A stretch of 22,882 bases of DNA. Source: a virus. The notes below the pieces were generated by a model. That model was not told the origin of the DNA. It ran no database searches and was given only the letters and a program-made list of their open reading frames with translations. Where the stretch lies: positions 1 to 22,882 of IMG/VR virus record IMGVR_UViG_3300033153_007511; one strand, written 5' to 3'. A program made the position numbers and the translations under genes. Numbering within the stretch: position 1 is the stretch's first letter; each line of letters opens with the position of its first letter. Positions 755 to 22,882 of this stretch are shown in pieces.

Positions 755-2440
755 ATGGTCATGAGAAAAACGAAAAAAAATAAGAAGAAAAAAACAGAAA
801 ACATATGGTATAATGGTGTTAAAGGATTAAAAAAAGCTGGTGTTGATGTATCATCATATATGACATCAGAGAGAGAAGAAGAAATTTCTAAATGTATGAA
901 TGATGCTTTTTATTTTATAGAAAATTATTGTTTCATTAGAACACTAGATCCTGATGAAAAGGGAAACCGTGTTATGTCTGTCAAGGATGCTGGGGGCTTG
1001 AGATGGTATCAGAATAAACAGATTCAAGATTATTTAGATAATAGATTCATAGCGTTAAATTTTCCTAGACAATCCGGGAAAACTGTTGGTACTGTTTTAT
1101 ATTTTGTTTGGAAATTAATGTTCACCGATGATTTCAATATTATGTGTCTTGCAAATAAGGACAAAGTAGCAAAGAATATATTAACAGAAGTGAAAAGAAT
1201 ACTCAAAAATTTACCTGTTTGGATGTCAGAGGGTATTGTTTTGGCAAACGAGCATAAAATAGGTTTTGAAAATGGTAGTTGGATAGAGGCAAGTGCAACA
1301 ACATTAGATGCTGGTCGTTCATCTTCTGCAAACATTATTTATTTAGATGAAGTCGCATTTGTTAAACGCAATGTTTGGTTAGAATTTTACAAAGGAGTTT
1401 ATCCGACCATATCATCAGGTAATACAACACAACTTATCGCAACTTCTACTCCAAATGGGCTAAATCATTGGTGGAAAATTATATCAGAAGGTAGACAAAA
1501 ATTAAATGATTATGTTATACATGAAATAAAATGGTATGATGTGCCGGGCAGGGACGAAAAATTCAAAGAGCAGACTATTAAAAATTTGGGAAAAGCAGCA
1601 TGGGATTCTGAGTATGATTGTCAGTTTATTGGTTCTGCAGGAACACTATTAAACTCCACAGTATTACAATCATTGGTATCATCAAACCCACTCAAAGAAA
1701 TATCAATATACAACAATAAATGGAAGCTCAAAATATACAAAGAATATATAAAAGGACACCAGTACATAATGACTCATGATCCCTCATATGGTTATGGTGA
1801 TGGTAGTGATTATTCTGGTATACATGTGTGGGATGTCACCTACAAAAATAAAATAGAACAAGTTGCAGTTATGTACGAAAATACGATAGGAAAAGAGGAA
1901 GCTCCTTATGTTCTCAAAAAAATTGGTGAACTATACGGAAATCCTTTTGAAATATCAGAAGTTAATAAATGTGAGGATGTTCCAAAAGATTTGATCACAG
2001 AAGCAGAATATATGGGAGAAGTGTACAGGGACCCTAAACGATATGGGTTGTTACAAACAGGGAAAACACGATCTGAAGGTTTAAAACAGCTTCAAAAAAT
2101 GTTTAACAATGACATGATGATGATTCATGATTTTGACACCATACACGAGTTATCTGTTTTCATTAAAAAGGGCGACAAATATCAGGCAGATGATGATGAG
2201 CACGATGATCTTGTAATGTCCATGAATCTGATGACATGGTTGATGAGCGATAAAAATAGATACGAGAAATATATTACAGATCAAGTTGATTACATGAATG
2301 ATATACAAGGGATCAAAGTTAATAATGGTATTGCATTGGTAGTTGATGGTAATCGAGATGAAGACTGGAGTAGTGATTCGAGTGATATTACAGATTGCTA
2401 TGGTGATGATATCCCAGATAATTTTTACCCCTCTTCTTAA
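755..2440 (+). CDS. terL: Terminase large subunit (DNA-packaging ATPase/nuclease)
   Basis: The 561-residue motor protein pumps DNA into the prohead and cuts the concatemer. Visible motifs: Walker A PRQSGKT (residues 104-110), Walker B IIYLDEV (194-200) with the catalytic Glu, and coupling motif ATSTPNG (229-235). The RNase H-like nuclease domain has HDPSYGYGDGSDYSG (341-355) with candidate metal-binding Asp342 and Asp352, and a C-terminal HDD (483-485). This matches the T4 gp17 plan, somewhat shorter than gp17's 610 residues. The N-terminus is Lys-rich. The start at 755 has AAGAGGT at 744-750; a second ATG at 761 is possible. It is the first gene of a late-type rightward unit. No small terminase subunit gene is visible in the window. 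Confidence 0.96.
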   Translation: MVMRKTKKNKKKKTENIWYNGVKGLKKAGVDVSSYMTSEREEEISKCMNDAFYFIENYCFIRTLDPDEKGNRVMSVKDAGGLRWYQNKQIQDYLDNRFIALNFPRQSGKTVGTVLYFVWKLMFTDDFNIMCLANKDKVAKNILTEVKRILKNLPVWMSEGIVLANEHKIGFENGSWIEASATTLDAGRSSSANIIYLDEVAFVKRNVWLEFYKGVYPTISSGNTTQLIATSTPNGLNHWWKIISEGRQKLNDYVIHEIKWYDVPGRDEKFKEQTIKNLGKAAWDSEYDCQFIGSAGTLLNSTVLQSLVSSNPLKEISIYNNKWKLKIYKEYIKGHQYIMTHDPSYGYGDGSDYSGIHVWDVTYKNKIEQVAVMYENTIGKEEAPYVLKKIGELYGNPFEISEVNKCEDVPKDLITEAEYMGEVYRDPKRYGLLQTGKTRSEGLKQLQKMFNNDMMMIHDFDTIHELSVFIKKGDKYQADDDEHDDLVMSMNLMTWLMSDKNRYEKYITDQVDYMNDIQGIKVNNGIALVVDGNRDEDWSSDSSDITDCYGDDIPDNFYPSS

Positions 2441-2453
2441 AGTACAACATCCT

Positions 2454-2461
2454 TATAAATA
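2454..2461 (+). promoter_or_regulatory. Late promoter TATAAATA before the sheath-like gene
   Basis: TATAAATA followed by AT lies in the 50-base gap between terminase and the next gene, 29 bases before its ATG. A GAGG ribosome site is at 2482-2485. Spacing and position match the other rightward starts. Confidence 0.7.
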
Positions 2462-2490
2462 ATAACAGCAAATAAATTTATGAGGATAAT

Positions 2491-3801
2491 ATGATAAATC
2501 TAAGCAAGGTAGATTTTCAGAGCAGTAAAAAACCAAAAACTGGTCAAAAAGGTTTGTTTTGGGGGTTGACATTTTACGAATCCATCTGGGGACCGTTGTT
2601 AGAACCCACCCACATTTCTAGCACATCAGAGTTGGTTGATAGATTTGGTAATTATGATGCAACTCTTGATAATAAATCGGATTTCATGCAAGCATGGAAT
2701 TTTCTTGAATATAGCACTAATTTAAAAATATATCGAGTGGGGACGGCATCAAACAACCCTATATTCTCAACCAATGTTTTAACTGGAATGGGAGGAAACT
2801 CGAACTCGCACTTATTTCTTGATAGTGTTACTGGGGGTGATACCAGTGTTTGGAATTCTAGTGACAATGGCTCAGATGTGTTTATCAGATTGGGTGATAT
2901 GACTAGACATGAGGATGAACCAACATACGGCACAGATCAGGTATGTTTTTGTTATGCAAAATACACAGGAGCACTTGGTAATCAAATAGGAATATCTACA
3001 GCAAACTATTTGGATGTTCTTTCTGAAAAATATGTGTGGAATCAAACGTCATGGACAGAGATTGATCTGGTGGATGTGAGCAATTTTGTTGCTGGGGGTG
3101 ATATTTCTGGTGAAACATCTGGTGCATCTGGCACAATATCTGCTGTAAATGGGAATAGAATAGAAATTATCTACACAGAGGGTTCTGTTGCATTTGTGAG
3201 TGGTGAAAATGTTGATAATGTTGTTAGTTTTGTTGCTACTGAAACTACTTGTTCTAATATAGATAACTACGACAAAGAAACTAATTTTTCTTTTGATGAC
3301 ATATTACCAAGATCACTTGTGATCAATGAGTTTGCTGTTGCCATAACAGTTGATAATATTTTGAAAGATGTTGTGATACTGTCAATGGACAATGATAAAC
3401 CAAACTATATAGAAGATTTTGAAAATCCTTGGATTGGTTTTTTTGTTGACACTAATTTAACAATAGCAGTAGACACTGATGATACCGCAACAAAATATGG
3501 GAAAATACCAGTAAGTGTGACAAAAAGAAACTTGAGGTTTGGTGCAAATGATATGATACCAAACACAGAGATAGCAGAATTAATAGGAAAACTATCAAGT
3601 GTTTATTTTGCTGATTATGATGTTATATTTAGTGAAAACAATGATAATGTTATAAAAGATGCAATAGATACACTTGCAGATGAGAGGTTTATAATACCTA
3701 TCATAAATAATTATGGGTATGTTGACTATGGGTATTTGATTGATAATTATTCAGATTTTATAACCACACATGATGGTTATAATATTATAATAGTAGGTTA
3801 A
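2491..3801 (+). CDS. Truncated tail-sheath homologue (N-terminal part only)
   Basis: This 436-residue protein is a sheath paralogue without the C-terminal core. Residues 20-85 carry the sheath N-terminal pattern (WGP at 33-35, LVDRFG at 48-53, AWNFLEY at 68-74, then iYRV), as in T4 gp18. Residues 155-169 (YAKYTGALGNQIGIS) match YAKYPGSRGNDIKV in the full sheath at 13607-15985. Residues 199-245 hold one GGDISGETSGASG beta-repeat, also present in the full sheath. FAVAITVDN...KPNYIE (281-308) aligns with EYALLVYVDD...EPNYID. The end, with DYDVIF and ADERF (375-400), resembles the Rossmann-like sheath domain, and then the protein stops. About 300 C-terminal residues are missing and are not found downstream in any frame. 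Possible roles are baseplate- or neck-proximal sheath variant or adaptor for the fibre genes that follow; the role is inference, the homology is strong. Confidence 0.82.
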   Translation: MINLSKVDFQSSKKPKTGQKGLFWGLTFYESIWGPLLEPTHISSTSELVDRFGNYDATLDNKSDFMQAWNFLEYSTNLKIYRVGTASNNPIFSTNVLTGMGGNSNSHLFLDSVTGGDTSVWNSSDNGSDVFIRLGDMTRHEDEPTYGTDQVCFCYAKYTGALGNQIGISTANYLDVLSEKYVWNQTSWTEIDLVDVSNFVAGGDISGETSGASGTISAVNGNRIEIIYTEGSVAFVSGENVDNVVSFVATETTCSNIDNYDKETNFSFDDILPRSLVINEFAVAITVDNILKDVVILSMDNDKPNYIEDFENPWIGFFVDTNLTIAVDTDDTATKYGKIPVSVTKRNLRFGANDMIPNTEIAELIGKLSSVYFADYDVIFSENNDNVIKDAIDTLADERFIIPIINNYGYVDYGYLIDNYSDFITTHDGYNIIIVG

Positions 3802-3814
3802 AGGAGAAAATAAT

Positions 3815-4600
3815 ATGGCTAGTAATAAAAGATTTGATGAAATGACCGAAAAGGCTACTATTGCAAATACTGATATTTTGCTTATTGCAGATTATGCGGA
3901 TTTAGACATCAACAGTAACCCAAAAACAAAAAAACTGACATGGGCAAATATGCTGACTATTATTGCAGCATCTGGGTTTGTGCTCGATGTTGACTATGAT
4001 GCTTACTCAATTTTAGCATCAGATGCAGATGATACACCAGTTGCTCTGACAGTAGCAGCATCTACTTTTGTTGGGAGAAAAACAAGTGGGGGAATTTCCG
4101 CCATGACTGCCTCAGAAGCAAGGGATGTTTTGAGTGTAGAAGAAAATTCTACCGCTGATCAAACAGACAGTGAAATAGAAACAGCATATAATAACCAAGT
4201 CGCTCAAGTTTCTGAAACAGAAAAAGATGAAATGACGAGCACATCGATAAAAACTAGTGCACCGAAGGATATTGCGGATATCGCTGGCACGGGAAATAAT
4301 ATAGTAACTGATTCAACAACCTCAAGAACATTTTCCCTGACAGACAGCAACAAACACATAAGATGCACCAACGGGTCAGCGATCACTCTCACAGTACCCC
4401 TTAACGCTACAGTACCTCTTCCAATCGGTTTCATGTGTGAGCCAGAACAAGCAGGGGCTGGAACAATTACATATTCCCCCGAAGGGGCTGCTGTATTGAG
4501 ATCGAAAGATTCTAATCTTAGCTCTAACGGTCAATACGGTTCTAGTATGATCAAGAAAATCGGAACGGACGAGTGGCTAATAGTCGGAGATCTAGCATAA
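3815..4600 (+). CDS. Tail-fibre/virion-appendage-like structural protein
   Basis: 261 residues. The N-terminal part (TDILLIADYADLDIN near residues 19-33) resembles the opening of many phage fibre and appendage proteins. A middle stretch (SAMTASEARDVLSVEEN, about residues 94-110) is typical of fibre shaft linkers. The C-terminal portion (about 165-261) is Thr/Gly/Ser-rich and predicted beta, ending in DEWLIVGDLA. The ribosome site is AGGAGAAAATAAT before ATG, 13 bases after the preceding stop, so it is co-transcribed with the sheath-like gene. Its stop overlaps the next start (TAATG). I do not recognise a named family; the fibre call rests on composition, linker motif and position before a giant kelch protein. 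Confidence 0.6.
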   Translation: MASNKRFDEMTEKATIANTDILLIADYADLDINSNPKTKKLTWANMLTIIAASGFVLDVDYDAYSILASDADDTPVALTVAASTFVGRKTSGGISAMTASEARDVLSVEENSTADQTDSEIETAYNNQVAQVSETEKDEMTSTSIKTSAPKDIADIAGTGNNIVTDSTTSRTFSLTDSNKHIRCTNGSAITLTVPLNATVPLPIGFMCEPEQAGAGTITYSPEGAAVLRSKDSNLSSNGQYGSSMIKKIGTDEWLIVGDLA

Positions 4601-5418
4601 TGTTTAATCGCAGAAGATGTATGTTACAGCAGGGGGTTATACCTCCAATACCTTTCGCCGCTGAACAATCATTCGGTAGTGTATTAGACATACAAGATGC
4701 AGGACAATACGATTGGTATCTCTACCCAAAAGCTGAAAAATATGATGATGAAAACGTATCAACACAGTCTTCAAAAATAGCATACGATAATCAACATGGA
4801 TACTGTTACTATTATGACATAACAACAACTGATATTTTCTATGCCGGAACTGATATAACCTCAGCAGGAACACAACTCACAAATTGCACTGCAACGTCTG
4901 GTAGCGAAGGGCTTACTGCTGGTGCTGAATATGTCTATGGATTAGGTACTGATTATCAGACCGTAAGAAGGATCAAATACGACAATACGGACGAAGGTCT
5001 TGTAGGTACATTCTCCGCAAACATGTCAAGTATATTTTACTGGGATGGTGTTGTATACGGAATAACTGCAAACGGTACAACAATACAAAGGTTGCACGAT
5101 AACAAGACTATGGATTTAACTCCTATGCTAACAGGTATCACCAATAACATTAGTGTAAGCAGAGGTGCCGACTACGACGGTCATACGCTCTATATCAATG
5201 CGGATGGATCGGGTGCTGGAACTCTACTTGAATTTAACTGGGAATGCAACATGGGAATAAGACCCGTACTTTACACTGCTATGGAAAATATTGAGACATT
5301 AATGACTACAGGATTAGATAGCTGTGTAATCAACCCAGTAACACATAGAGTAGAGCTACTTAACAACGTTGTCACAAACTCCAGAATATACATGCTAAAA
5401 CTCAAAGGCGAGGCTTAA
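4600..5418 (+). CDS. Hypothetical structural protein, beta-rich, between fibre-like and kelch genes
   Basis: 272 residues from the ATG that overlaps the upstream stop (TAATG, 4598-4602). An in-frame GTG at 4573 would add nine residues but lies inside the previous gene; GGAG at 4584-4587 favours the ATG. The sequence is rich in Tyr, Asp, Gly and Thr, with short repeated strand-like stretches (TVRRIKYDN, IFYWDGVVYGI, TIQRLHDN) suggesting a small propeller or beta-sandwich. No signal peptide, membrane segment or catalytic motif is visible. Its operon position between a fibre-like protein and the kelch protein suggests a host-contact or appendage assembly role, which is inference only. Confidence 0.6.
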   Translation: MFNRRRCMLQQGVIPPIPFAAEQSFGSVLDIQDAGQYDWYLYPKAEKYDDENVSTQSSKIAYDNQHGYCYYYDITTTDIFYAGTDITSAGTQLTNCTATSGSEGLTAGAEYVYGLGTDYQTVRRIKYDNTDEGLVGTFSANMSSIFYWDGVVYGITANGTTIQRLHDNKTMDLTPMLTGITNNISVSRGADYDGHTLYINADGSGAGTLLEFNWECNMGIRPVLYTAMENIETLMTTGLDSCVINPVTHRVELLNNVVTNSRIYMLKLKGEA

Positions 5419-5421
5419 CAA

Positions 5422-8400
5422 ATGAAATCACATAACATAGAACTAGGACTAAGAACAATAACCAAAGATGAACACGGATGTATCCTGAGAGATTCTAACT
5501 TCAACTCTAACAAAAATGCTGAAAGTTCAATACAGGCAGGAGACAAGACGTTTCCGATGCGTAGCCCCGTGAAGACACTGTTTGATGGTTTAGATAATTC
5601 GTTCAGAAATAATGCAGGTGTTCTACCCAAACTCAAAGCAGTACACACTAACGGTAGTGACTGGGAAGAGAAGACTACTGTTGCTCCTTGGGGTGATAGG
5701 GGGGATTTTAACCCGGTAGAGTATCAAGGAAAACTATGGGTAATTGGTGGCTCGGATGGAACCACCTACTACAATGATGTGTGGTCTTCTGAAGATGGTG
5801 AAAATTGGCGCGAAGTTTTAGCCAATGACGCGACGCCCCCAGGAACACAATTCCCGCAAAGACGGGGACATCAAGTATACTCCTTTGATGACAAACTTTG
5901 GGTCGTTGGTGGTTATACAGGTGCTGCTTATCTCAATGATGTTTGGAACTCAACGGATGGGATAACATGGGCAAATAATCTAGCCGACACGGGAAGCCCT
6001 GGTGCTGATCAATTCTCAAGAAGATCTTATTTCACGGGTTGTGTTTTTAACGACAGAATGTGGGTAATAGCCGGAACAACGGGAACCCTGACTAATGAAG
6101 TTTGGAGTACTGCGGATGGTACTGACTGGGATAACGAAGGAGCTTCTGCACATTTTACTGCAAGGCAACTACTTGTGTGTACTATATTCAATAATGAGAT
6201 GTTTATATTTGGTGGACATGATGGTTCTCCCACAAACGATGTTTGGTCAAGTGTGGATGGTGCTAGTTGGACTGATGAAAGTGCAACATCTCAGTTCTCT
6301 GCAAGAAGCGGATTAAGTGCAGTGACAGTGGACGGCAAAATGTGGGTGTTTGGTGGAACTACTGGAACAATAGCAGATACAGCAAATGCACAAAATGATG
6401 TATGGTGGTCAGTTAACGGTTCCGTATGGACACAAGGAGGCAAATCAGGTTTTTGGAAAAGCAGAACACGACAAGGTGCTGTTGCTTTTAAAAATCAAAT
6501 ATATCTAATGGGAGGGGTAGCATCAACTAATGTAAATGATGTTTGGTCTAGCAAAGACACCTTCAACAATAACGCATGGGATGAAGTAGATGATAGTGCT
6601 GACTGGGTAGGAAGAAATGGTCATAGATCTGTGGTTTTTCAAAATAAAATGTGGATTATTGGTGGTTGGAATGACATCGCTGATTATAACGGCGTTTACT
6701 CGTCTCCTGATGGCACTGCGTGGTCAACTGTTTTATCTGAGGGTCATGGTCAGTTTACAGCAAGAAGACAACATACGCTGTTAGTTTATGATAATAAGAT
6801 GTGGATAATCGGAGGATTCATTGATCCTGCAACTAGTTTAAACGATGTCTACTCTAGTCCCGATGGTGTAACATGGACACAGGAAACCGCAAGTGCTGCC
6901 TTTTCCGCTAGATCAGGTCATGCATCTTTAGTCTATGATAACAAAATGTGGGTATTGGGTGGCTCTGACGGTGCTAGGAAAAACGACGTTTATTGGTCAA
7001 CAGATGGCTCTACTTGGAACACCGCGACAATAAGCGCAGGGTGGTCTGGTAGAGTGATTTCATCGGGTATTGTCTTTGATAATAAAATGTGGTTAATAGG
7101 GGGAGATGATGGGTCGGCCAAATCAGATGTTTGGTCAAGTTCAGATGGAGTTACCTGGATAGAAGAAACACCTGACGGGGCTTTCGGAGGCTCTTTCGGG
7201 TCTATTTGTACAACATTCAATAACCGAATATTTATCGTTGCAGCGGCGGGAGATAGTGATAGCGTTTGGTCAAGTTCAAATGGAAAAGACTGGACTAAAG
7301 ATGAATCTGATGCTGAATGGGTCGGACGTTGGTATCATAACGTTTTGACCTTTAAAAATAAAATATGGATACTTGGCGGAAAGAATGGATCAGGAAATTT
7401 AAACGACGTATGGAGTTGGAACCCTTACCCTACAACAACAGGAATAACATTAGGATCAGGAACATTTGGCAGTAGTTGGAGTGAGATACTTGCTGACGAT
7501 GCAACACCCCCGAGCACACAATTCAATCAACGAGAATGCTCTTCCTTAGTTTTCAACAACAAACTTTGGATAATCGGAGGATTTGACAGTACTAATTATT
7601 TTAATGATGTTTGGAGCAGTTCAGACGGCATTAATTGGACTGAAGTGCTTGCGGATGGTCATGGTCAATGGTCACAGAGGAGACTGCATCAAATAAGTGT
7701 TTTTGACAATAAAATGTGGGTATTTGGGGGAACTACCAATATTAGTGAATTAAATGATGTTTATTCTTCCTATGACGGCGTAACTTGGACTCAAACAACA
7801 GCGGCGGCGGAATGGCCTATACGTTCCTCTTTTTCTTCATTGGTATTCGACAACAAGATGTGGGTTATGGGCGGCTACTCTTCTACAGTAAATAGAAACG
7901 ATGTTTATTCCAGTTCAGACGGCATAACTTGGAATGAGGAGACATCCTCAGCGGATTGGGATGCTCGGAGAGGACATACGACCTTAGTTTTCGACAATAG
8001 AATGTGGGTATTTGGTGGATATGGTAGTGGTACGACATATAATGTCTGGAGCAGTTCGGATGGGATTAACTGGGTTGAGGAAGCTTCCGCAATATGGATG
8101 GGTAGACGTTATGTAGGGTCGTGTGTATTCAACAATAAAATGTATGTGAGTTGCGGGTATACTACGGCTTCTTTGGATGATGTCTGGTCTTCAGAAGATG
8201 GGATTAACTGGTCAGAGGTGTCTAGTTCATTAGGCATAGGAACACGATATGTTATAGGAATGTCAGTGTTTGACAATAAACTTTGGATCATGGGCGGGAT
8301 TACAGACTCTTCCAATCTAAACGACGTTTGGGCAACAAACATAACCACAACAGCAGTAGATCCTACAGACACTGCCCTAGAAGATATACAGAACAACGGA

Positions 8401-10017
8401 ACAGACAAACTAACCTATGGTAACTGTGAAGTAGTACCGTTTGGAACTGCTACGTTGAGTGGGGCGAGTTGGACGGAGAAAACTGCAAGTGCTGCTTGGT
8501 CTACTAGAAGAGGTCATGCTTCTGTGGTCTTTGACAATAAGATGTGGGTTATTGGAGGATGGAATGGTACACAATTTTTCAACGGGGTTTATTCTTCCCT
8601 AGACGGTATTAATTGGGTGACTGTTTTACCAAACGGTCACGGAGGCACTGAACAATGGTCTCAAAGAAGTAACACAAGAGTAGTCGTCTTCGACAATAAG
8701 ATGTGGTTAGTCGGTGGTCGTACTGGCCCTGCATATCTTAATGATGTATATAGTTCAACTGATGGTGTGACTTGGGCATTGGCGACATCAAATGCAGGTT
8801 GGGATCTTAGGGTGTCCAATACTTTAGTGGTCTTTGACAACAAGATGTGGGTTATCGGTGGTTTGGACAGTTCGATGGTCTATCGGAATGATGTATGGTC
8901 CAGTAGTGACGGGATTAGTTGGGTAGAAGAAACGCCGAGTGCGAACTGGGGATCAAGATATGAGCATGTATCTGTGGTCTTTGACAACAAGATGTGGGTT
9001 ATCGGTGGTTATGCTGGTACATACATTCCTGATGTATGGTGTTCCGGTGATGGTATTAATTGGTCGGAGGTTGCAGACGGTTGTGACTTTAGACCATTTT
9101 CCCCTGTTGGATTAGTTGCAAATAATAAAATATTTTTACTTGGTGGATCTAGTGCTGAGGATAGCGGAGATGCCTCAAATGATATATGGTATTCAGAGGA
9201 TGGAGAATCTTGGAGTAAGATTCTCGTTTCAACTATATGGAGTGGGAGAGTTTATTTTTCTGGGGTGTTTTATGACAATAAGATGTTGATGTTTGGTGGT
9301 ATTGGGTCTTCTTATCTGAATGATGTATGGTGTGCAGAAGACGTTCTTTCAATAGGCGTAAAAAGAAAACTCAAAAACAATTGTGACTCAGACCTCGTAA
9401 TAGCCGAATCAGGAATAACTCTAACAGATACAATAGAATCAGCAAATCAAGTATGTGTTAGAGATGCAGTAGCAACTACAATAATGCCAAACAGAGAACT
9501 CACAATGACGTACAAGATTAATGCAACCATAGACAACACCTCTCCAATACTGACATTCAACGAGAACTTCTTTAAAGCGTTACAAGCAGCAATGCAAAAC
9601 GAACCCGTTGAGCTTAACCATACCAACACATACACAAACATTGTAAATCCTTTCTCGCTGTCAAATGGTGCAAGTATCCTAGGAGGGGCAGGTGTTCACA
9701 AAGAGGGTTTAGTAGTAGGAACGCAAGCGAATCCTGTATATAACGAACATGATTTGGGAATCGAATCATCACTCACGTACAGTGCACATACATATACCCC
9801 TCCCACAATAAATGGCTCAAAAACACAGATAGTAATATCAAGAGACATAACGAACGAAACGGGAAGTGATTTTGGGATAAACTGTTTCGCATTAAAAATA
9901 CTGACAGACACTTTTCCGTATTCTGAATATTCCATAATCCAAGGTGATCTAAACGAAACATTGCTGAAGAATCAAGTACTCACAATAACATTAACAATCT
10001 CAGCAGATACCGCATAG
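5422..10017 (+). CDS. Giant kelch-repeat protein, probable four-propeller adhesin or receptor-binding protein
   Basis: 1531 residues. Twenty-four kelch-type blades follow the pattern FdNKMWVIGG...NDVwSSsDGinW...R.gH, at about 51 residues each. First blades of successive sets of six are near residues 103, 407, 713 and 1039. The sets are marked by irregular joints: an altered joint (SSKDTFNNNAW) after blade 6, TTTGITLGSGTFGSSW after blade 12, and a longer linker (TDTALEDIQNNGTDKLTYGN) after blade 18. This fits four six-bladed beta-propellers. Residues 1-100 are a separate N-terminal region. Residues 1312-1531 are a beta-rich, non-repeat C-terminal domain, possibly for trimerisation or attachment. 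Kelch propellers bind proteins or glycans; host recognition is inferred from size, repeats and neighbours. There is a three-base gap after the previous stop and GAGG lies about 9 bases upstream. Confidence 0.88.
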   Translation: MKSHNIELGLRTITKDEHGCILRDSNFNSNKNAESSIQAGDKTFPMRSPVKTLFDGLDNSFRNNAGVLPKLKAVHTNGSDWEEKTTVAPWGDRGDFNPVEYQGKLWVIGGSDGTTYYNDVWSSEDGENWREVLANDATPPGTQFPQRRGHQVYSFDDKLWVVGGYTGAAYLNDVWNSTDGITWANNLADTGSPGADQFSRRSYFTGCVFNDRMWVIAGTTGTLTNEVWSTADGTDWDNEGASAHFTARQLLVCTIFNNEMFIFGGHDGSPTNDVWSSVDGASWTDESATSQFSARSGLSAVTVDGKMWVFGGTTGTIADTANAQNDVWWSVNGSVWTQGGKSGFWKSRTRQGAVAFKNQIYLMGGVASTNVNDVWSSKDTFNNNAWDEVDDSADWVGRNGHRSVVFQNKMWIIGGWNDIADYNGVYSSPDGTAWSTVLSEGHGQFTARRQHTLLVYDNKMWIIGGFIDPATSLNDVYSSPDGVTWTQETASAAFSARSGHASLVYDNKMWVLGGSDGARKNDVYWSTDGSTWNTATISAGWSGRVISSGIVFDNKMWLIGGDDGSAKSDVWSSSDGVTWIEETPDGAFGGSFGSICTTFNNRIFIVAAAGDSDSVWSSSNGKDWTKDESDAEWVGRWYHNVLTFKNKIWILGGKNGSGNLNDVWSWNPYPTTTGITLGSGTFGSSWSEILADDATPPSTQFNQRECSSLVFNNKLWIIGGFDSTNYFNDVWSSSDGINWTEVLADGHGQWSQRRLHQISVFDNKMWVFGGTTNISELNDVYSSYDGVTWTQTTAAAEWPIRSSFSSLVFDNKMWVMGGYSSTVNRNDVYSSSDGITWNEETSSADWDARRGHTTLVFDNRMWVFGGYGSGTTYNVWSSSDGINWVEEASAIWMGRRYVGSCVFNNKMYVSCGYTTASLDDVWSSEDGINWSEVSSSLGIGTRYVIGMSVFDNKLWIMGGITDSSNLNDVWATNITTTAVDPTDTALEDIQNNGTDKLTYGNCEVVPFGTATLSGASWTEKTASAAWSTRRGHASVVFDNKMWVIGGWNGTQFFNGVYSSLDGINWVTVLPNGHGGTEQWSQRSNTRVVVFDNKMWLVGGRTGPAYLNDVYSSTDGVTWALATSNAGWDLRVSNTLVVFDNKMWVIGGLDSSMVYRNDVWSSSDGISWVEETPSANWGSRYEHVSVVFDNKMWVIGGYAGTYIPDVWCSGDGINWSEVADGCDFRPFSPVGLVANNKIFLLGGSSAEDSGDASNDIWYSEDGESWSKILVSTIWSGRVYFSGVFYDNKMLMFGGIGSSYLNDVWCAEDVLSIGVKRKLKNNCDSDLVIAESGITLTDTIESANQVCVRDAVATTIMPNRELTMTYKINATIDNTSPILTFNENFFKALQAAMQNEPVELNHTNTYTNIVNPFSLSNGASILGGAGVHKEGLVVGTQANPVYNEHDLGIESSLTYSAHTYTPPTINGSKTQIVISRDITNETGSDFGINCFALKILTDTFPYSEYSIIQGDLNETLLKNQVLTITLTISADTA
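8827..8863 (+). repeat. 37-bp exact direct repeat inside the kelch gene (second copy 8974-9010)
   Basis: The 37 bases at 8827-8863 recur without change at 8974-9010, encoding the VVFDNKMWVIGG core of two neighbouring blades in the fourth propeller. The spacing of 147 bp (49 codons) is one blade, so recombination between them would remove or add a whole blade in frame. Confidence 0.85.
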
Positions 10018-10027
10018 GAGGAATATT

Positions 10028-10148
10028 ATGAATTTGAGAAACTACAGACCAAAACAACTATTCCAAATATGGTGAAGTAGCATGGTTAATTATTCTCCAG
10101 ACATTTTTTGTATTCTGTTTTGGTTTCACTGTATTTCAAACACACTGA
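10028..10148 (+). pseudogene. Small membrane-protein mini-gene after the kelch gene, apparent 1-base frameshift
   Basis: A strong ribosome site (TAGGAGG, 10015-10021) overlaps the kelch stop and is followed by ATG 10028, but the frame stops after 15 codons at 10075. One base fewer in the AAAA run at 10051-10054 would give a 39-residue protein. Its start would be MNLRNYRPNNYSKYGEVAW, then a hydrophobic helix LIILQTFFVFCFGFTVF, ending at 10148. Either the gene is broken, or the run is miscalled, or the short peptide is the product. It overlaps the minus-strand candidate at 10086-10249, so at most one is likely genuine over that stretch. Confidence 0.35.
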
Positions 10149-10249
10149 ATGAGAGAAATACAGGAGCATAAAAAGTCCCACTGTTAAACTAAATAGTCCT
10201 GCTGAGATTAGAAGATCCCCGAAATTAGCGTTAGTCTGTATTTTTTCAT
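10086..10249 (-). pseudogene. Small single-helix membrane protein, apparent 1-base frameshift at its start
   Basis: Directly after the stop of the gene at 10251-10451 an ATG (10249-10247) is followed by six A, and the frame stops after 13 codons. With one more A the reading frame continues for 54 residues: an MKKIQTNANFGD start, a hydrophobic segment LLISAGLFSLTVGLFMLLY, then a charged Cys-containing tail ending KKCLENN at 10086. The operon position, one base after the previous stop, fits the leftward cluster. The upstream GGAGG is 15 bases away, which is far. It could be a real gene with a homopolymer miscall, a slippage site, or a decayed gene. Confidence 0.35.
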
Positions 10250-10250
10250 T

Positions 10251-10451
10251 TTATCTTCTTTTTTCCTCCACTTCTACATATTTAACATTTAAACCATCCA
10301 CCCTGTCCGAAGAATCACACATTCTACCAGGGCAACCCGTACCCTCGTAGTAACATCCTTCACATCCTTCGGCTATGGTCGCTTCTACAACACGAACTCT
10401 GCCAACACTAAAGGTATCCCCAACTTTATACTCTCTCATAATCTCCTTCAT
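10251..10451 (-). CDS. Small Cys-rich phage protein (possible zinc-binding)
   Basis: 66 residues. An opening KVGDTFSVGRVRVVEA is followed by four Cys (residues about 30, 33, 40 and 45) in a CEGCYYEGTGC...C arrangement and a C-terminal DGLNVKYVEVEE strand. I recall the same plan in many short phage proteins of unknown function. The Cys spacing could bind one zinc ion. The start overlaps the upstream stop (TAATG) with GGGAG 7 bases before it, so it is translationally coupled to the membrane protein at 10451-10717. No function can be assigned. Confidence 0.7.
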   Translation of the reverse strand: MKEIMREYKVGDTFSVGRVRVVEATIAEGCEGCYYEGTGCPGRMCDSSDRVDGLNVKYVEVEEKRR

Positions 10452-10717
10452 TATTTTTCTCCCTTATGTCTTTGTTGATTTAACTTCCTGGCGTGTTGCA
10501 TTACGCTGACCAATCTTAAAAAAGTGATAACGGCTACAACTAAAGGCGACCATAAGAACCATAATAGTATTTTAACCCCTATCAAGACAAACTCTTCTTC
10601 TTCTGTCCATCTCAGGGTGTTCCCTTCCGACAACTTCCAGGCATGGTATATGACTGAAAGAATAAATCCTATTGCATAAAGTAAAGCTATCGTGTTTATT
10701 GCATATGATGTGTTCAT
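10451..10717 (-). CDS. Small two-helix membrane protein, unknown
   Basis: 88 residues with two hydrophobic segments: about residues 7-25 (INTIALLYAIGFILSVIYH region) and 43-66 (FVLIGVKILLWFLWSPLVVAVI region). A charged hairpin (TEEEE) separates them and a basic tail (RKLNQQRHKGEK) follows. This predicts an inner-membrane hairpin. A GGAGAAGTAAC ribosome site precedes the ATG. It lies in the leftward cluster whose promoter is at 11042-11069. Holin-like topology is possible but nothing specific supports it, and no endolysin gene is adjacent. Confidence 0.65.
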   Translation of the reverse strand: MNTSYAINTIALLYAIGFILSVIYHAWKLSEGNTLRWTEEEEFVLIGVKILLWFLWSPLVVAVITFLRLVSVMQHARKLNQQRHKGEK

Positions 10718-10763
10718 GTTACTTCTCCTTCATTTTTTAACATTTTAGTTCCTTCGTTTTATT

Positions 10764-11003
10764 TCAAAAAACACCCGTAGTTTCTATCGTCAACCGTTTT
10801 TGCAAAAAATATACAATATTTGACGCAACCCTCTCATCTATAAGATCACGTGCAATTAGCCCATCAAAAAATATTTTTATTTCTTCTTTGATACTCTGGT
10901 GAGCCGCAACACTATTAAGTGAAGAATACTTTGCTATTAAATTATTCCAAAATTCATCTAATTTATAATTTTTTGGTCCTACTGTGATATTAATATCATT
11001 CAT
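10764..11003 (-). CDS. Hypothetical small protein, first gene of leftward unit
   Basis: 79 residues from ATG 11003-11001, chosen because AAGGAG lies 7 bases upstream; the longer frame would need a TTG at 11027 that lies upstream of this site. The sequence is mostly helical and charged (KLDEFWNNLIAKYSSL, IKEEIKIFFDGLIARDLID). No membrane segment, Cys pairs or recognised motif. It follows the promoter at 11042-11069 by about 40 bases and is probably expressed early with the two genes after it. Confidence 0.6.
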   Translation of the reverse strand: MNDINITVGPKNYKLDEFWNNLIAKYSSLNSVAAHQSIKEEIKIFFDGLIARDLIDERVASNIVYFLQKRLTIETTGVF

Positions 11004-11041
11004 TTTGTTCTCCTTAACAAGTGTCAATCAACTACAATAGC

Positions 11042-11069
11042 AGTATACTTCATTCTATGAAGTTGTCAA
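11042..11069 (-). promoter_or_regulatory. Leftward sigma70 promoter with a palindrome between the boxes
   Basis: Minus strand: TTGACA (11069-11064), 16-bp spacer, TATACT (11047-11042). The spacer is a perfect inverted repeat, ACTTCAT-AGA-ATGAAGT (11047-11063), a position where a bound repressor would block polymerase. Unlike the four related promoters it lacks TGTGG before the -10 box. Confidence 0.7.
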
Positions 11070-11075
11070 CAAAAA

Positions 11076-11083
11076 TATAAATA
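11076..11083 (+). promoter_or_regulatory. Late promoter TATAAATA for the 11112-11579 gene
   Basis: TATAAATA starts 7 bases from the -35 box of the leftward promoter, pointing the other way, 28 bases before the ATG at 11112. Same back-to-back layout as 673-726 and 18897-18956. Confidence 0.65.
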
Positions 11084-11111
11084 TTTTTAAATAACCTGAA
11101 TGGAGGAAGGA

Positions 11112-11579
11112 ATGAAAGTTTACAAGGCAGTATTAAAGATGTTAGTAGAGAAAGGCAGAGTGGCACAAAACATAGACAGCACAACCAAAACAGAACTAGA
11201 CACATTGATTGACAATCTATCAAAAGAATCACATTTTCAAATCAAGTATTCTGATTTCGATCAAGTTGCGTCTACCAACATCACGTTTGATGATTTGAAT
11301 AGAACTGCGACATCTAGTGATACAAATGCGGAATTAGTGACAAATCAATTGTCATTGAGTGATATTAGTATTAAGTCTCTACACGTAAATTCAACAGGAG
11401 CAACAGTGAATCAAATCACAACTGACAACACTGTTTTTCATATAGTCCCTGAATTTAATATCAATGAAGAAATTTTAGAGGCTGTACAAGTTATTGATTT
11501 TAGAATTAAGATTATTGTTTCTGGATCAGGTGATGTTGTATCTGGTATGGAATTGGTTTACGACTCTGTAGATGTTTGA
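11112..11579 (+). CDS. Hypothetical late protein
   Basis: 155 residues from ATG 11112, chosen over the ATG at 11100 because GGAGGAAGGA lies immediately before the second one. The N-terminus (MKVYKAVLKMLVEKGRV) is helical; the rest is Thr/Ser/Asp-rich with a predicted beta-type C-terminal half (VIDFRIKIIVSGSGDVVSGM). No signal peptide, membrane helix or known motif. A late promoter just upstream and its position between host-contact and tail genes suggest a virion component. Its TGA abuts the TAA of the convergent gene at 11580, so its transcript must run into that gene. Confidence 0.6.
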   Translation: MKVYKAVLKMLVEKGRVAQNIDSTTKTELDTLIDNLSKESHFQIKYSDFDQVASTNITFDDLNRTATSSDTNAELVTNQLSLSDISIKSLHVNSTGATVNQITTDNTVFHIVPEFNINEEILEAVQVIDFRIKIIVSGSGDVVSGMELVYDSVDV

Positions 11580-11876
11580 TTATGAACCGTGCACATAGTT
11601 GAGTGTTGATTCTTTGAAATTGTGTGTTATTTCTTTAGCAGTAAATTCATTCCAATCTGCAAATTCAAATTGTGAGATTGATTTGTTATGTTCTAGCGGA
11701 GAGGACAATATATAGTTCTTCTTTGCCAACGACGCGATATACCCGGCGACTTGATGTTTGGTCAATTTTCCAAAATCACATTGATCAGAAGTTGTGAATT
11801 GTCCGCCTGTTTCTTTGATTGCACTTTCTGCAATGATGATTAAAACCTTTCTCTCTTCTTTGTTGATGCACAACAT
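11580..11876 (-). CDS. Small winged-helix-like putative transcription regulator
   Basis: 98 residues from ATG 11876-11874, which has GAGGTGA 6 bases upstream; twelve earlier in-frame residues precede it without a ribosome site. The pattern KVLIIIAESAIKETGGQF...DFGKLTKHQVAGYIASLAKKNYI (in parts, residues about 10-56) fits a winged helix-turn-helix in which LTKHQVAGYIASLAKKN would be the recognition region. Similar short phage proteins with 'LT..Q..GYlsSL.KKg.I' occur, from memory. It could regulate a nearby promoter, for instance its own, which holds a palindrome. Being monocistronic and early fits a regulator. DNA binding is inference. Confidence 0.55.
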   Translation of the reverse strand: MLCINKEERKVLIIIAESAIKETGGQFTTSDQCDFGKLTKHQVAGYIASLAKKNYILSSPLEHNKSISQFEFADWNEFTAKEITHNFKESTLNYVHGS

Positions 11877-11923
11877 AACGTCACCTCTTTCAAAAATTAA
11901 ATAAACAACCAACTTACATATAT

Positions 11924-11951
11924 ATTATACCACATCTGTGGTGGATGTCAA
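11924..11951 (-). promoter_or_regulatory. Leftward sigma70 promoter with operator-like palindrome
   Basis: Minus strand: TTGACA (11951-11946), 16-bp spacer, TATAAT (11929-11924), with TGG before the -10. A palindrome ACCACA-TC-TGTGGT (11929-11942) covers the -10 edge and spacer, a plausible operator for the winged-helix protein it drives. Confidence 0.8.
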
Positions 11952-11985
11952 GAAAAAGTGAAGAAAAGTGAAAAATAATTATATT

Positions 11986-12072
11986 GTCATACAAGCACGA
12001 AAACGGTTTACCCTTGCTTTGGTATTCGGAAACCGTTTTCGTTGCACCACGAGCCACACAGTTGCTTAAATC
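11986..12072 (+). repeat. 87-bp element, copy 1 (inverted partner at 19416-19502); candidate structured RNA
   Basis: Aligns end to end, without gaps, with the reverse complement of 19416-19502 at about 80% identity; both are 87 bases. The best-conserved block is the 24 bases around GTTTTCGTTGCACCACGAGCC (copy 1 about 12035-12058). Copy 1 contains a strong hairpin: GCA plus CGAAAACGGTTT (11995-12009) pairs with AAACCGTTTTCG, a bulged T and TGC (12030-12045). A second small hairpin AGTTG/CAACT is at 12060-12076. No T-run follows, so it is not a standard terminator. It lies upstream of the gene at 12183 and downstream of the rightward transcript that crosses 11579. Confidence 0.7.
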
Positions 12073-12136
12073 AACTATCTACTACCAAGACGGATCCCAA
12101 AAAGTGATACTTATTTAAAACATAAATACAAAACAA

Positions 12137-12144
12137 TATAAATA
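12137..12144 (+). promoter_or_regulatory. Late promoter TATAAATA for the 12183 gene
   Basis: TATAAATA followed by AT, 38 bases before ATG 12183, with GGAG at 12174-12177. It starts the block leading to the sheath gene. Confidence 0.65.
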
Positions 12145-12182
12145 ATACCAGTATAATATTTTTTTAATATAATGGAGTAATC

Positions 12183-12956
12183 ATGAAACCATATTTCAAA
12201 TGGGCAATTTTTCTTGTTTTTGTGCTGTTGATCGCAATTTTGATATCGAGTGATACAGGAAACACTTTAATAAACTGGATCATATCATTTAGCAACAGCA
12301 CAAACACCGGCAAGGGGATAATAACAGCACTGATAGGTGGGCTGTTTGCTGTCATTGCAGCATACATAAAAACAGTCCTTTATAATGCAACAACCCACGC
12401 ATCAACAGAAATCAAAATCGGGTATGAAAACATAACCGAGAAAATACTAAATTTGACAAATACAATTGACATAACTAGAAAAGACATAGAGAGTTTGAGA
12501 CATGATTTTTCAGAGATGAAATTAAGCCAATCCACACGAGAGGAGTACGAGAAGCAACTAACCAAAGTTATCAACACTGCAATTGGTTATTTCAACGTTG
12601 ATAGTGATTTGCAATCATTTGTCAGATACCAAGCAGAAGAGTTCAAGAATTTCACAGTCAGCATTCAACAAAAAGATTTAAAAGATTTGGAATATGAAGA
12701 TATAAAACAATCTGGCATAACATTAGCAGAAACTATCTATCAACGATCGTGCGAACTACTTGGAAATGAAGCAGCAAACTATTACAGAGACAATTGTTAT
12801 CTAGGTGATTGGAAAATATTTATGAACAAGGTTAAATATATCATTAACGATCCGGTGAATAATAAAAATTATAGGTTCTTTTCGGAGTCAACAACATATT
12901 TACAAACATCTATGTCAAGAACGTTAGAATGCTGGATGAATTACAATAAAAAATAG
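12183..12956 (+). CDS. Membrane protein with two N-terminal helices and a large helical cytoplasmic domain
   Basis: 257 residues. Two hydrophobic segments: residues about 7-23 (WAIFLVFVLLIAILISS region) and 45-66 (GIITALIGGLFAVIAAYIKTVL region). After them a heptad-like helical stretch (about 80-125: ITEKILNLTNTIDITRKDIESL) suggests a coiled coil, followed by a helical C-terminal domain. Polarity predicts both ends in the cytoplasm. No known motif is visible. It has a late promoter and sits 8 bases before the sheath C-terminal homologue, so it is expressed with tail genes. A membrane-anchored late assembly or lysis factor is possible; the T4 holin has only one helix and a periplasmic domain, so it is not an obvious match. 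Confidence 0.7.
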   Translation: MKPYFKWAIFLVFVLLIAILISSDTGNTLINWIISFSNSTNTGKGIITALIGGLFAVIAAYIKTVLYNATTHASTEIKIGYENITEKILNLTNTIDITRKDIESLRHDFSEMKLSQSTREEYEKQLTKVINTAIGYFNVDSDLQSFVRYQAEEFKNFTVSIQQKDLKDLEYEDIKQSGITLAETIYQRSCELLGNEAANYYRDNCYLGDWKIFMNKVKYIINDPVNNKNYRFFSESTTYLQTSMSRTLECWMNYNKK

Positions 12957-12964
12957 GTGATATC

Positions 12965-13555
12965 ATGTCAAACAGAGAAAATTTGGTATACTTCAACAAC
13001 CAAAAAACACAGCAAAATCCATATACTAATACACTAGAAGAGTATGGAGTGTCAGGGGATGTTGCAGGGGTGGTGATACAGAAATTAAATTCCCGGGAAT
13101 TTTCCGAGATAGCAGGTTCAACCAATTCAGATATAAAAAACATAGTATCTATTAATCAATACACTTATGATGAAGCACTTGAAAAAGAAAAAGACAACGA
13201 GAACATCATAGAGCGACTAGGGGATAAATTTTTTATACACGGGAACACAACAAACAAAACAGACAAAGAGCACATGACCGCATATCTAAATATTAAATTG
13301 TTAGTAATGTATATAGATAAAGGACTAAGCAAGTATTTTGACAATATGATAGGTTCTAATTTTTCTGATAAAAGGATATTGAGGCGACTAGAAGGGAAGA
13401 TGGAAGAAATATCAGGAAATGTGAAAAGATATTTAAGGGATTTTGCATACGAGATAACCTATGAAGATGATAAAAGGAAGATAGATGTTGATATATTTCA
13501 GGCATACAATAAACCAATAGGGAAAATAAAATTAAACATACAGCAAATTGATTAG
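12965..13555 (+). CDS. Stand-alone homologue of the tail-sheath C-terminal domain
   Basis: 196 residues. Residues 109-133 (starting NIKLLVMYIDKGLSKYFDNM) align with residues 681-704 of the full sheath at 13607-15985 (starting NAVLVVTRDMKVLSKLLDNY), sharing N, L, V, K, LSK, DN, I and N in register without gaps. Preceding 'hGn.T' and 'WGqkT' also correspond. The rest follows sheath C-terminal logic: FSDKRILRRLEGKMEEISGNVKRYL in two overlapping helices, then IDVDIFQAYNKPIGKI, matching sheath VVDFYVRPAKAVEYI. There is no sheath N-terminal or middle domain; residues 1-90 are different. In contractile tails this domain builds the inter-subunit mesh and contacts the initiator and terminator, so a cap, initiator or regulator role is inferred. 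AGGTGAT precedes the ATG. The alignment was made by eye. Confidence 0.6.
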   Translation: MSNRENLVYFNNQKTQQNPYTNTLEEYGVSGDVAGVVIQKLNSREFSEIAGSTNSDIKNIVSINQYTYDEALEKEKDNENIIERLGDKFFIHGNTTNKTDKEHMTAYLNIKLLVMYIDKGLSKYFDNMIGSNFSDKRILRRLEGKMEEISGNVKRYLRDFAYEITYEDDKRKIDVDIFQAYNKPIGKIKLNIQQID

Positions 13556-13562
13556 TGTAAAT

Positions 13563-13570
13563 TATAAATA
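13563..13570 (+). promoter_or_regulatory. Late promoter TATAAATA for the tail sheath
   Basis: TATAAATA followed by AT, 36 bases before the sheath ATG, with GAGGAGAA at 13593-13600. It starts 7 bases after the stop of the upstream gene. Confidence 0.7.
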
Positions 13571-13606
13571 ATGTTAGTATTTAATAACTTTAGAGGAGAA
13601 TAAAAA

Positions 13607-15985
13607 ATGGCAACAAATAACAGCCCTCATGTAAAAAAAAGAATCCAGGATAAAAGTCTTGGTGTGGTTCCTTTAGGTGCTGGCAACGGTGCTTTTATCT
13701 GTGGTGGTCAGTGGGGACCATGCGGAAAAGTTTTCACCGTTCAAAGTGAAAACGATTTAAGAGATATGTTAGATGAGCCTGTAGTGGGAAACAATCATCA
13801 ATCATGGCATGCAATCGCACAGCACGTCGAATTTTATTCAGGTGGTGCTAAAATAGTTCGCCCCTACGACACAGCAGGACTTGCAAATTCATGTCTGATA
13901 GCATCTGTAGATTCTTCTACTACCGCATTTTCAACAACAGGAACAACTAGTAATGGTACTGCAATTCCTTATAACCTCAATGTTGATGCTGATATTTCTA
14001 TCACACCCACACTCATACCTCTGCAGAAATTAACTTGTGCAGATGGTTCAGTATTTAGTGCAGGTGGTGATATTTCAGGCGAAACTTCTGGAGCGGCAGG
14101 AACAGTAGCATACATTATCGGAAATTATGTGTATGTAAAAGACATCACTGGCGGTCCTTTTCAGGCAGAAAATCTTGATGATACTGCTATCTATGCAGCG
14201 ACAATCACAACTTCTACAGCTGTCACACAGGATCAGGATCAGGTTCTCTACCTCTATGCTAAGTACCCAGGTTCAAGAGGTAATGATATTAAGGTTGCTT
14301 TCTGTGATCATGTTAATTTTCATGACAGAACTAGACTAACAGTAGGAACAGATGCAGAGGCACAATTTGCAGCAGGTGATGTTGTTGTTGGATCTACCTC
14401 AAACGCATCTGGTATTGTATATGCCTCTGATACAACCAATCACTATCTCTACCTAAGAGATGTTAGTGGTGTTTTTCAGGCAGAAAATCTAACTGTAATA
14501 GGTGAAGAACAATGGATGATAACTGTTGGAGCAGGAGAAGAAAATACATTCACTGTTGGTGAAAAAGTATACCAATCATCTAGTATTTACGGTTATGTTT
14601 CAGATATAGACACAACAAGCCATATTTTATACCTTGCTAACAGTGGCACTGGAACATTCACAACCGCAGCAGTAACAGGAACGAGTGGTGGTGCTGGTAC
14701 AGCATCAGCAGTGGCAAATGTTTCAGCAGTTGCGTCTGCATTCGATGCAACAGGGTTAGGATCTACAGCAGATGGAACAAACACATTTAAAGCGCTCGTG
14801 AAAAACGAGACAGGAACAGAAACACTTGCATCAGATGAATATGCACTTTTAGTCTACGTTGATGATGTACTAACAGAAACACACGTTGTTTCACATACAA
14901 CTACATCAACCAAACCAAACGGGAATGAGCCAAATTATATTGATTATTTGCTAGAAAATGATTCAGCGTGGTTATACTCTGTGACAGATGTTAGTGGCGT
15001 GAGTTTTGATGATTTTAGCGGATCTTTTCAGAAAACATCTCTAGCAGGAGGAACTGCAGCACAGTGTTCAATCTCTGCCTGTCAAGTGGCATATGATACC
15101 TTATTTAATGATACAAGAAATGGGATCTATTTTGTTGGTGATTATCATGATATGGCATCTTACGATGTTAGTAACTATAGAACACTTACTGCATATATGG
15201 TAGGGAAAGCAGAATTGTCAAGGGAACATTTTTGTATATCAACATTGCCAAAGGCTGCAATAAGCGACACTGCGTTTGATATTAACACGCTGAACGAGAG
15301 TGTGGCGGGAATAAATTCAAAATACATTAGTATCACAGATCAATGGAAAGAGATCTGGTGTAAATATAATAGAAGGAAATATTTCATTCCTACGACTGGT
15401 GATGTTATGGGATTGGTTATAAACAATGTTGAACAAAATGGTGACTGGGAAGCACCTTTCGGAAATACCAAGGGTGTTATGAGAAATACTACCAAATTGT
15501 ACCATAATCTGTCTACTGGCGAAGCAAGCAACGTGTCGGATCTCTATGGGGCGGGAATCAACAGTATTATATATAAAGAAGATATTGGGTTTGTATTATG
15601 GGGACAAAAAACGAGATTCAACCCAGCGTCAGACCTAAGTAGAATTAATGCTGTTTTAGTTGTTACTAGGGATATGAAAGTTCTAAGTAAACTTTTGGAC
15701 AATTATATTTCATATAACCTTAATGAGAGCTTGTATGCACTTGTTACAGTTGCATGTGATAGGGGATACCTGGCAGGCAGAAGTGCGAGCGGGGCATATT
15801 TGTCCCAAAATGGTGATGGTGGGTATGAATTTGTGTGTAGTAGTCAAAATAATACACCTGCAACACAGAAAGCTAACACGTTGGTGGTAGATTTCTACGT
15901 TCGTCCCGCGAAGGCAGTCGAATACATACACTTCACGGCGATTGTCACCCCGAGCGGAACAACATTTAAAGAACTTGTTGGGTAA
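13607..15985 (+). CDS. Tail sheath protein (full length)
   Basis: 792 residues; contracts to drive the tube through the host envelope. The N-terminal sheath pattern is at residues 28-88 (GGQWGP, LRDML, YSGGAKIVRPYD). YLYAKYPGSRGNDIKVAFCDH (215-235, in parts) is the conserved sheath strand. EYALLVYVDD at 411 and EPNYID at 441 follow. The C-terminal core runs from about 570 to 792: ITDQWKEIWCKY, a proximal FVLWGQKTRF, the helix around 681-704 and the final strand VDFYVRPAKAVEYIHFTAIV (761-780). T4 gp18 has 659 residues. The extra length comes largely from three beta-repeats inserted at about 149-199, 253-300 and 313-360, each of the form FsaGe.v.g.tSgAsG.v......lylrdvsG.F.aeNl. The late promoter is at 13563. 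Confidence 0.93.
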   Translation: MATNNSPHVKKRIQDKSLGVVPLGAGNGAFICGGQWGPCGKVFTVQSENDLRDMLDEPVVGNNHQSWHAIAQHVEFYSGGAKIVRPYDTAGLANSCLIASVDSSTTAFSTTGTTSNGTAIPYNLNVDADISITPTLIPLQKLTCADGSVFSAGGDISGETSGAAGTVAYIIGNYVYVKDITGGPFQAENLDDTAIYAATITTSTAVTQDQDQVLYLYAKYPGSRGNDIKVAFCDHVNFHDRTRLTVGTDAEAQFAAGDVVVGSTSNASGIVYASDTTNHYLYLRDVSGVFQAENLTVIGEEQWMITVGAGEENTFTVGEKVYQSSSIYGYVSDIDTTSHILYLANSGTGTFTTAAVTGTSGGAGTASAVANVSAVASAFDATGLGSTADGTNTFKALVKNETGTETLASDEYALLVYVDDVLTETHVVSHTTTSTKPNGNEPNYIDYLLENDSAWLYSVTDVSGVSFDDFSGSFQKTSLAGGTAAQCSISACQVAYDTLFNDTRNGIYFVGDYHDMASYDVSNYRTLTAYMVGKAELSREHFCISTLPKAAISDTAFDINTLNESVAGINSKYISITDQWKEIWCKYNRRKYFIPTTGDVMGLVINNVEQNGDWEAPFGNTKGVMRNTTKLYHNLSTGEASNVSDLYGAGINSIIYKEDIGFVLWGQKTRFNPASDLSRINAVLVVTRDMKVLSKLLDNYISYNLNESLYALVTVACDRGYLAGRSASGAYLSQNGDGGYEFVCSSQNNTPATQKANTLVVDFYVRPAKAVEYIHFTAIVTPSGTTFKELVG

Positions 15986-22865: not shown

Positions 22866-22882
22866 TCTCAATCCTCCTTATT

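Follow-up and report, generated by a model that had tools for sequence, protein, structure and literature searches.

A short sheath homologue without domain IV in the gp18 position of a divergent T4-like phage

Why would a phage that encodes a complete tail sheath protein also carry a second, intact gene that resembles a sheath but stops before the C-terminal core? This question is raised by a 22.9 kb fragment (22,882 nucleotides, hereafter the window) of the virus record IMGVR_UViG_3300033153_007511, which belongs to a divergent T4-like phage. The top matches of its terminase among those listed for the phage collection are cyanophages, at 33–36% identity, and a direct search of IMG/VR with the terminase did not find a close relative. 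Domain IV is the part of the sheath subunit that grips the tail tube and links the subunits into a mesh, and phage sheaths are thought to acquire their outer domains as additions to a fixed core. A natural protein with the outer part but without the core would show that the outer domains can function independently of contraction, as carriers of adhesins for instance.

Sheath homology along the protein

The gene that the original prediction placed at 2491–3801 is present as an intact reading frame of 436 codons, which we call the short sheath homologue (SSH; Table 1). It matched the tail sheath family PHROG_23 in the PHROGs (E = 8.6e-6) and, below the threshold, Gp18_domIII_N in Pfam. Residues 31–286 scored 47.7 bits against a profile of 117 T4-like sheaths, and comparison with sheaths by hhalign gave about 96% over residues 33–171. 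These last two results supply the match sought in the HHpred-type profile comparison that had been proposed as a check and, together with PHROG_23, they place the homology to sheaths beyond chance. As judged from its sequence, SSH is a real gene of sheath origin.

Table 1. Positions of SSH, its segments and the other genes and signals discussed in the text.
Feature	Positions	Strand	Basis
Terminase large subunit (gp17)	755–2440	+	Pfam Terminase_6N 3.7e-13; PHROG terminase 4.9e-49; slot comparison
T4-type late promoter box TATAAATA of the SSH operon	2454–2461	+	Exact match
Ribosome-binding site GAGGA	2482–2486	+	Sequence
SSH, 436 aa, without domain IV	2491–3801	+	ORF call, profiles, structure match
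SSH residues 1–18, remodelled N-terminal arm	2491–2544	+	SPG motif lost
SSH residues 19–95, N-terminal half of domain III	2545–2775	+	Strongest sheath match
SSH residues 96–340, domain I/II region	2776–3510	+	Similarity to full sheath: YAKY.G..GN, DISGETSG module, PNYI; BLASTP 6e-9
DISGETSG surface module in SSH	3067–3261	+	42% identical to module of full sheath
SSH residues 341–436, modelled as C-terminal half of domain III	3511–3798	+	pLDDT 55–83 per 10-residue block, guided model only
Fibre-like protein	3815–4600	+	PHROG 8780 1.9e-12
272-aa protein of unknown family	4600–5418	+	Start overlaps preceding stop (TAATG)
Kelch-repeat (beta-propeller) protein, 1531 aa, last gene of the operon	5422–10017	+	Pfam Kelch_1 8.8e-101
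Late promoter box of the full sheath gene	13563–13570	+	Exact box
Full tail sheath (gp18), 792 aa, arm through C-terminal core	13607–15985	+	PHROG_23 1.1e-36; PDB sheaths 3.3e-21
Tail tube (gp19)	17365–17883	+	PHROG_45 3.4e-38

Against a general sheath profile, residues ~19–95 scored 64.7, compared with 13.3 ± 2.4 for shuffled sequences, and residues 20–95 are barely similar to the full sheath of the same phage. Further along the protein, the similarity to this full sheath was equalled by 0 of 1000 shuffles for residues 96–190 and by 2 of 1000 for residues 258–340. The C-terminal ~100 residues (318–436 tested) did no better than shuffles against either the sheath profile or the full sheath. 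The claim that the Rossmann-like regions are clear therefore holds for the N-terminal half of domain III and does not hold for residues ~335–436, which are at the level of shuffles.

The motifs that had been listed for SSH are all present (YAKYTGALGNQI, GGDISGETSGA and KPNYIE). The GGDISGETSG repeat is indeed common to SSH and the full sheath, but it cannot serve as a hallmark of sheaths, since it is missing from 160 others: BLAST of the ~60-residue module against all other ORFs of 165 loci, 160 of them sheaths, returned no match. Marginal BLAST matches were obtained in cyanophage virion proteins. Because BLAST placed the module in no other ORF of these loci, its presence in both proteins suggests that they are related, or have exchanged sequence, within this phage and is not in itself a sign of sheath ancestry. 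In the full sheath, the module is clear in one copy, with up to two weaker copies, in the outer domains; the N-terminal domain of this protein is unusually diverged. A recent duplication of the full sheath gene is unsupported, the N-terminal domains being 20% identical. The outer domains of the two proteins have lineage-specific features in common, so that an older duplication within the lineage, or a conversion, is likely.

Prediction of the structure of SSH alone, which had also been proposed as a check, gave a sheath fold when the model was guided, but the C-terminal Rossmann fold vanished in a control. With 48 sheath fragments as a guide, AlphaFold returned a domain III fold, with pLDDT mostly 65–90 at residues 21–89 and mostly low confidence between residues 89 and 341. 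The guided model matched T4 gp18M (3foa) with Z 16.4, residues 19–436 of the model corresponding to residues 21–454 of gp18, a match that is to some extent circular, the guide rows being sheaths themselves. When the guide rows were restricted to residues 1–170, the confidence in the C-terminal part was low and the structural match to sheaths covered only residues 15–173. Because the confidence is gone in this control, the idea that a domain boundary marks the end of SSH belongs to the model and is not a result.

Absence of domain IV and the search for relatives

The C-terminal core, which had been reported as absent, is missing from SSH: the profile match stops at position 248. The full sheath covers positions 3–647 of the 117-sheath profile. 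A six-frame search outside the full sheath gene, including 3801–13606, found no remnant of the C-terminal core. A frameshift artefact in SSH is thus ruled out because no frame downstream, or anywhere outside the full sheath gene, encodes the core, and a trans-split sheath is ruled out by the completeness of the full sheath. Moreover, the S-P-G motif of the arm, which is found in at least 90% of the aligned sheath rows in two alignments, does not occur in SSH. SSH is without either half of the sheath core (domain IV), the SPG of the arm being lost and the C-terminal core gone, and because of this double loss SSH alone should be unable to form a sheath.

SSH resembles T4 gp18 and other T4-like sheaths in the N-terminal half of domain III, the YAKY.G..GN region, the slot behind gp17 and the late promoter. 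It differs from T4 gp18 in having neither the SPG arm nor the C-terminal core, in its length (436 vs. 659 residues) and in its ~100 C-terminal residues, which are unrecognisable. A construct of T4 gp18 comprising residues 1–510 (gp18M) was folded and did not polymerise (PMC3004832). Like SSH, gp18M, a deletion mutant that has been crystallised, retains the outer domains but not the C-terminal part of domain IV, and it is the best structural match of the guided model. However, gp18M was made in the laboratory, still has its native N-terminal residues and runs to residue 510, whereas SSH aligns only to residue 454.

In T4-like phages, the sheath is terminated by gp15, which counts against the idea that SSH is an assembly factor, binding sheath subunits by its outer domains so as to cap a ring, set the end of the sheath or block premature polymerisation; in addition, the operon partners of SSH are adhesins and not assembly genes. 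Such a factor would suit the failure of core-less deletion forms of gp18 to polymerise (PMC3004832) and the outer-domain features common to SSH and the full sheath, and we regard it as improbable.

A direct search of IMG/VR with SSH found no close relative, and an IMG/VR search with SSH as the lead gave 80 loci and no other intact SSH-like gene. The same gene arrangement was not found in a relative among the loci searched. Among 187 complete sheath-like ORFs from 240 loci, the only core-less ORFs were SSH (with its own copy) and those of S-ShM2 and CC_R7. The 335-residue "tail sheath" of S-ShM2 and the 271-residue "sheath-like" protein of Aeromonas phage phiAS4 are probably splits introduced by gene calling or sequencing, because the other half of the S-ShM2 gene overlaps and further split genes occur in both records. 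In Campylobacter phage CC_R7 (L169:3756–7871), the member of the sheath gene pair that carries the core is in two pieces, 5509–6846 and 7446–7871. An IMG/VR contig (L043:1225–5195) has tandem sheath genes of 633 and at least 686 residues, the second of which reaches the end of the contig.

The gp18 position and the late operon

SSH starts 51 bp past the end of the terminase gene, and the full sheath gene lies 11.2 kb past the same point. In 213 of 213 T4-like loci, the sheath gene starts at most 989 bp from the end of the terminase gene (median 78 bp), a count that covers terminase and sheath genes in the same direction; because the flanks of the loci extended no further than 10 kb, wider spacing would be under-counted. 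The sheath gene is also directly behind the terminase gene in RB49, S-PM2, HTVC008M, Mosig, ACP17 and T4. SSH had been described as far from the real sheath; the distance is indeed 9.8 kb, but it is SSH itself that stands in the canonical sheath slot behind the terminase. SSH thus occupies the gp18 slot, and it probably descends from a gp18 gene at its ancestral site.

The late promoter claimed for SSH is an exact T4-type box, TATAAATA. Eight exact copies of this box occur in the window against 2.8 expected, a number reached in 0 of 100 shuffles, and each of the seven copies on the plus strand lies 24–113 nt upstream of an ORF start. Because SSH is in the gp18 slot, the promoter may have been inherited and would be expected for any gp18, and it therefore says little for function or against decay. 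The position cuts both ways, in that it gives the origin of SSH and removes the promoter as a functional argument.

The clean stop of SSH is followed by the predicted ribosome site, AGGAG, between this stop and the next start, 13 nt on. From SSH through the genes 3815–4600 and 4600–5418 to the kelch gene, the successive gaps are 13, −1 and 3 nt. Because these gaps are tight and the next exact box is at 11076, the four genes are laid out as one late operon with a single promoter box, which agrees with the operon of fibre-like and kelch genes that had been proposed. The product of 3815–4600 has a C-terminal domain that is common among minor tail and tail-fibre proteins, and its tblastn matches are in Gordonia and alphaproteobacterial phages; a search for relatives of the 4600–5418 product found none. 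The codon usage of SSH correlates with that of the core genes at 0.91, compared with 0.74 and 0.78 for the next two genes, whose GC content also differs. Judging from this deviating composition, the fibre-like genes may be a later insertion.

The gp18 slot gives real weight to the alternative that SSH is a relic, namely the original gp18 cut by an adhesin cassette that was inserted behind the outer domains, after which a second sheath took over. SSH stands where the sheath stands in all 213 loci, its promoter and ribosome site are possibly inherited, and the deviating GC content and codon usage of the two next genes fit a cassette behind a truncated gp18. Furthermore, copies of gp18 can duplicate and break, as in the broken sheath copy of CC_R7, and conservation of SSH was not seen, with no relative found in IMG/VR. 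However, a 3′ cut alone leaves the remodelled N-terminal arm unexplained, the frame of SSH is still open despite its large divergence, and its codon usage is of the core-gene type. In a neutral simulation, in which indels were not counted, the frame stays open with a probability of 0.055 at 0.05 substitutions per site and 0.002 at 0.1. We consider the relic rather unlikely. The homology, the missing core and the long-open diverged frame support the original description of SSH as sheath-derived, core-less and not freshly decayed, and the open diverged frame, the native codon usage and the tight operon with a fibre-like and a kelch gene are better functional evidence than the promoter.

Phages with several sheath homologues and the possible role of SSH

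According to the reports on CP220 and IBB_35 (PMC2853527, PMC3322345), three gp18 homologues of each phage are present in virions. In our comparison, CP220 CPT_0052 covers only positions 2–213 of the sheath profile and continues with Ig-like domains, and the adjoining CPT_0053 contains the core but hardly any of the N-terminal part. This division of domains was not found stated in the searched passages of PMC2853527 and PMC3322345. CPT_0052 was a gel band from CP220 virions and the CPT_0053 product was likewise found in virions, so a core-less sheath homologue can be a virion component. Similar to SSH, CPT_0052, IBB_35 gene 1-7 and CP21_078 (PHROG_20545) are natural sheath homologues without the C-terminal core, and they carry extra surface domains. 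Unlike SSH, they keep the SPG arm, Ig-like domains replace the remaining sheath fold, and the gene directly precedes a second sheath gene, in which the core is present but most of the N-terminal part is missing, whereas the gene next to SSH is fibre-like and the full sheath is complete elsewhere. SSH had no match to PHROG_20545 at E ≤ 1. The adjacent "tail sheath" genes of CP220 (L293:5950–9306) and IBB_35 (L294:4501–7806) look trans-split, one with the arm, the N-terminal part and Ig-like domains and the other with the core.

Pseudomonas phage PaBG (PMC7412058) also has two sheath paralogues; unlike SSH and its full sheath, both are full sized (about 58 kDa), with similar predicted structures. 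The two sheath proteins of PaBG, the three reported from virions of CP220 and IBB_35, and the division of the N-terminal part and the core between neighbouring homologues in CP220 would be precedents for SSH as a minor subunit that is built into the sheath itself, interleaved with copies of the full protein. However, the full sheath has every part from arm to core and requires no partner to complete it, and SSH, being without both halves of domain IV, cannot occupy the inner mesh as a normal subunit. We therefore judge a heteromeric sheath of this kind to be very improbable.

Vibrio phage pv27 CDS0288 (L166:6249–7616, minus strand), which lies ahead of fibre genes and is annotated as "tail sheath", is not a second sheath but a homologue of gp15, the sheath stabiliser, which its N-terminal ~200 residues match. 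It is similar to SSH in that a tail-structural domain heads a fibre operon with the main sheath elsewhere, and it differs in not being a sheath protein. Since CDS0288 heads a fibre operon, it may be a further tail part that has been put to use again next to fibres.

We tentatively favor the explanation that SSH was once a sheath subunit and has been retained as an accessory protein of the virion or as a docking protein for adhesins. The gp18 at the ancestral site would have lost domain IV, giving SSH, which would keep much of the outer part, namely domain II, the surface module and, of domain III, the N-terminal half. Its own promoter would direct the late synthesis of SSH, the first product of an operon with fibre-like and large kelch proteins, and SSH would pack on the exterior of the tail or on the adhesins, where it would dock or decorate for the host-recognition proteins. 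The sheath ancestry, the absence of the core, the gp18 slot, the late promoter box and the operon layout are read from the DNA itself, and we infer the expression of SSH, its presence in the virion and its contact with adhesins. Domain I of the T4 sheath bears the contact with retracted fibers (PMC3004832), and from this analogy and from the operon, the proposed role of SSH as an adaptor between host-recognition proteins and the tail may reasonably be inferred. It is possible, although doubtful, that the outer part of a sheath, freed of the core, became a stand-alone virion protein that docks the fibre and kelch adhesins on the tail. Against an accessory role, the gp18 slot makes the promoter and the neighbourhood explicable without a new function. 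Together with CP220, SSH raises a testable question, namely whether phages with multiple sheaths decorate their tails with spare homologues.

The window has other features outside the SSH operon. Between the sheath and tube genes, 16081–17363 holds an endonuclease-like gene with repeated zinc-ribbon-like units, which looks frameshifted because an HNH domain is encoded in a different frame at 17169–17363. The minus strand at 20965–22871 encodes a GroEL-like chaperonin (Cpn60_TCP1 1.1e-61), and next a small protein that matches GroES weakly (0.015), and the two may be a phage chaperonin pair; in Vibrio phage pv27, a GroEL gene lies between the sheath and tube genes. At the other end, the minus strand at 1–648 encodes a pentapeptide-repeat protein (repeated NSG) with an N-terminal DUF7666, which runs off the window.
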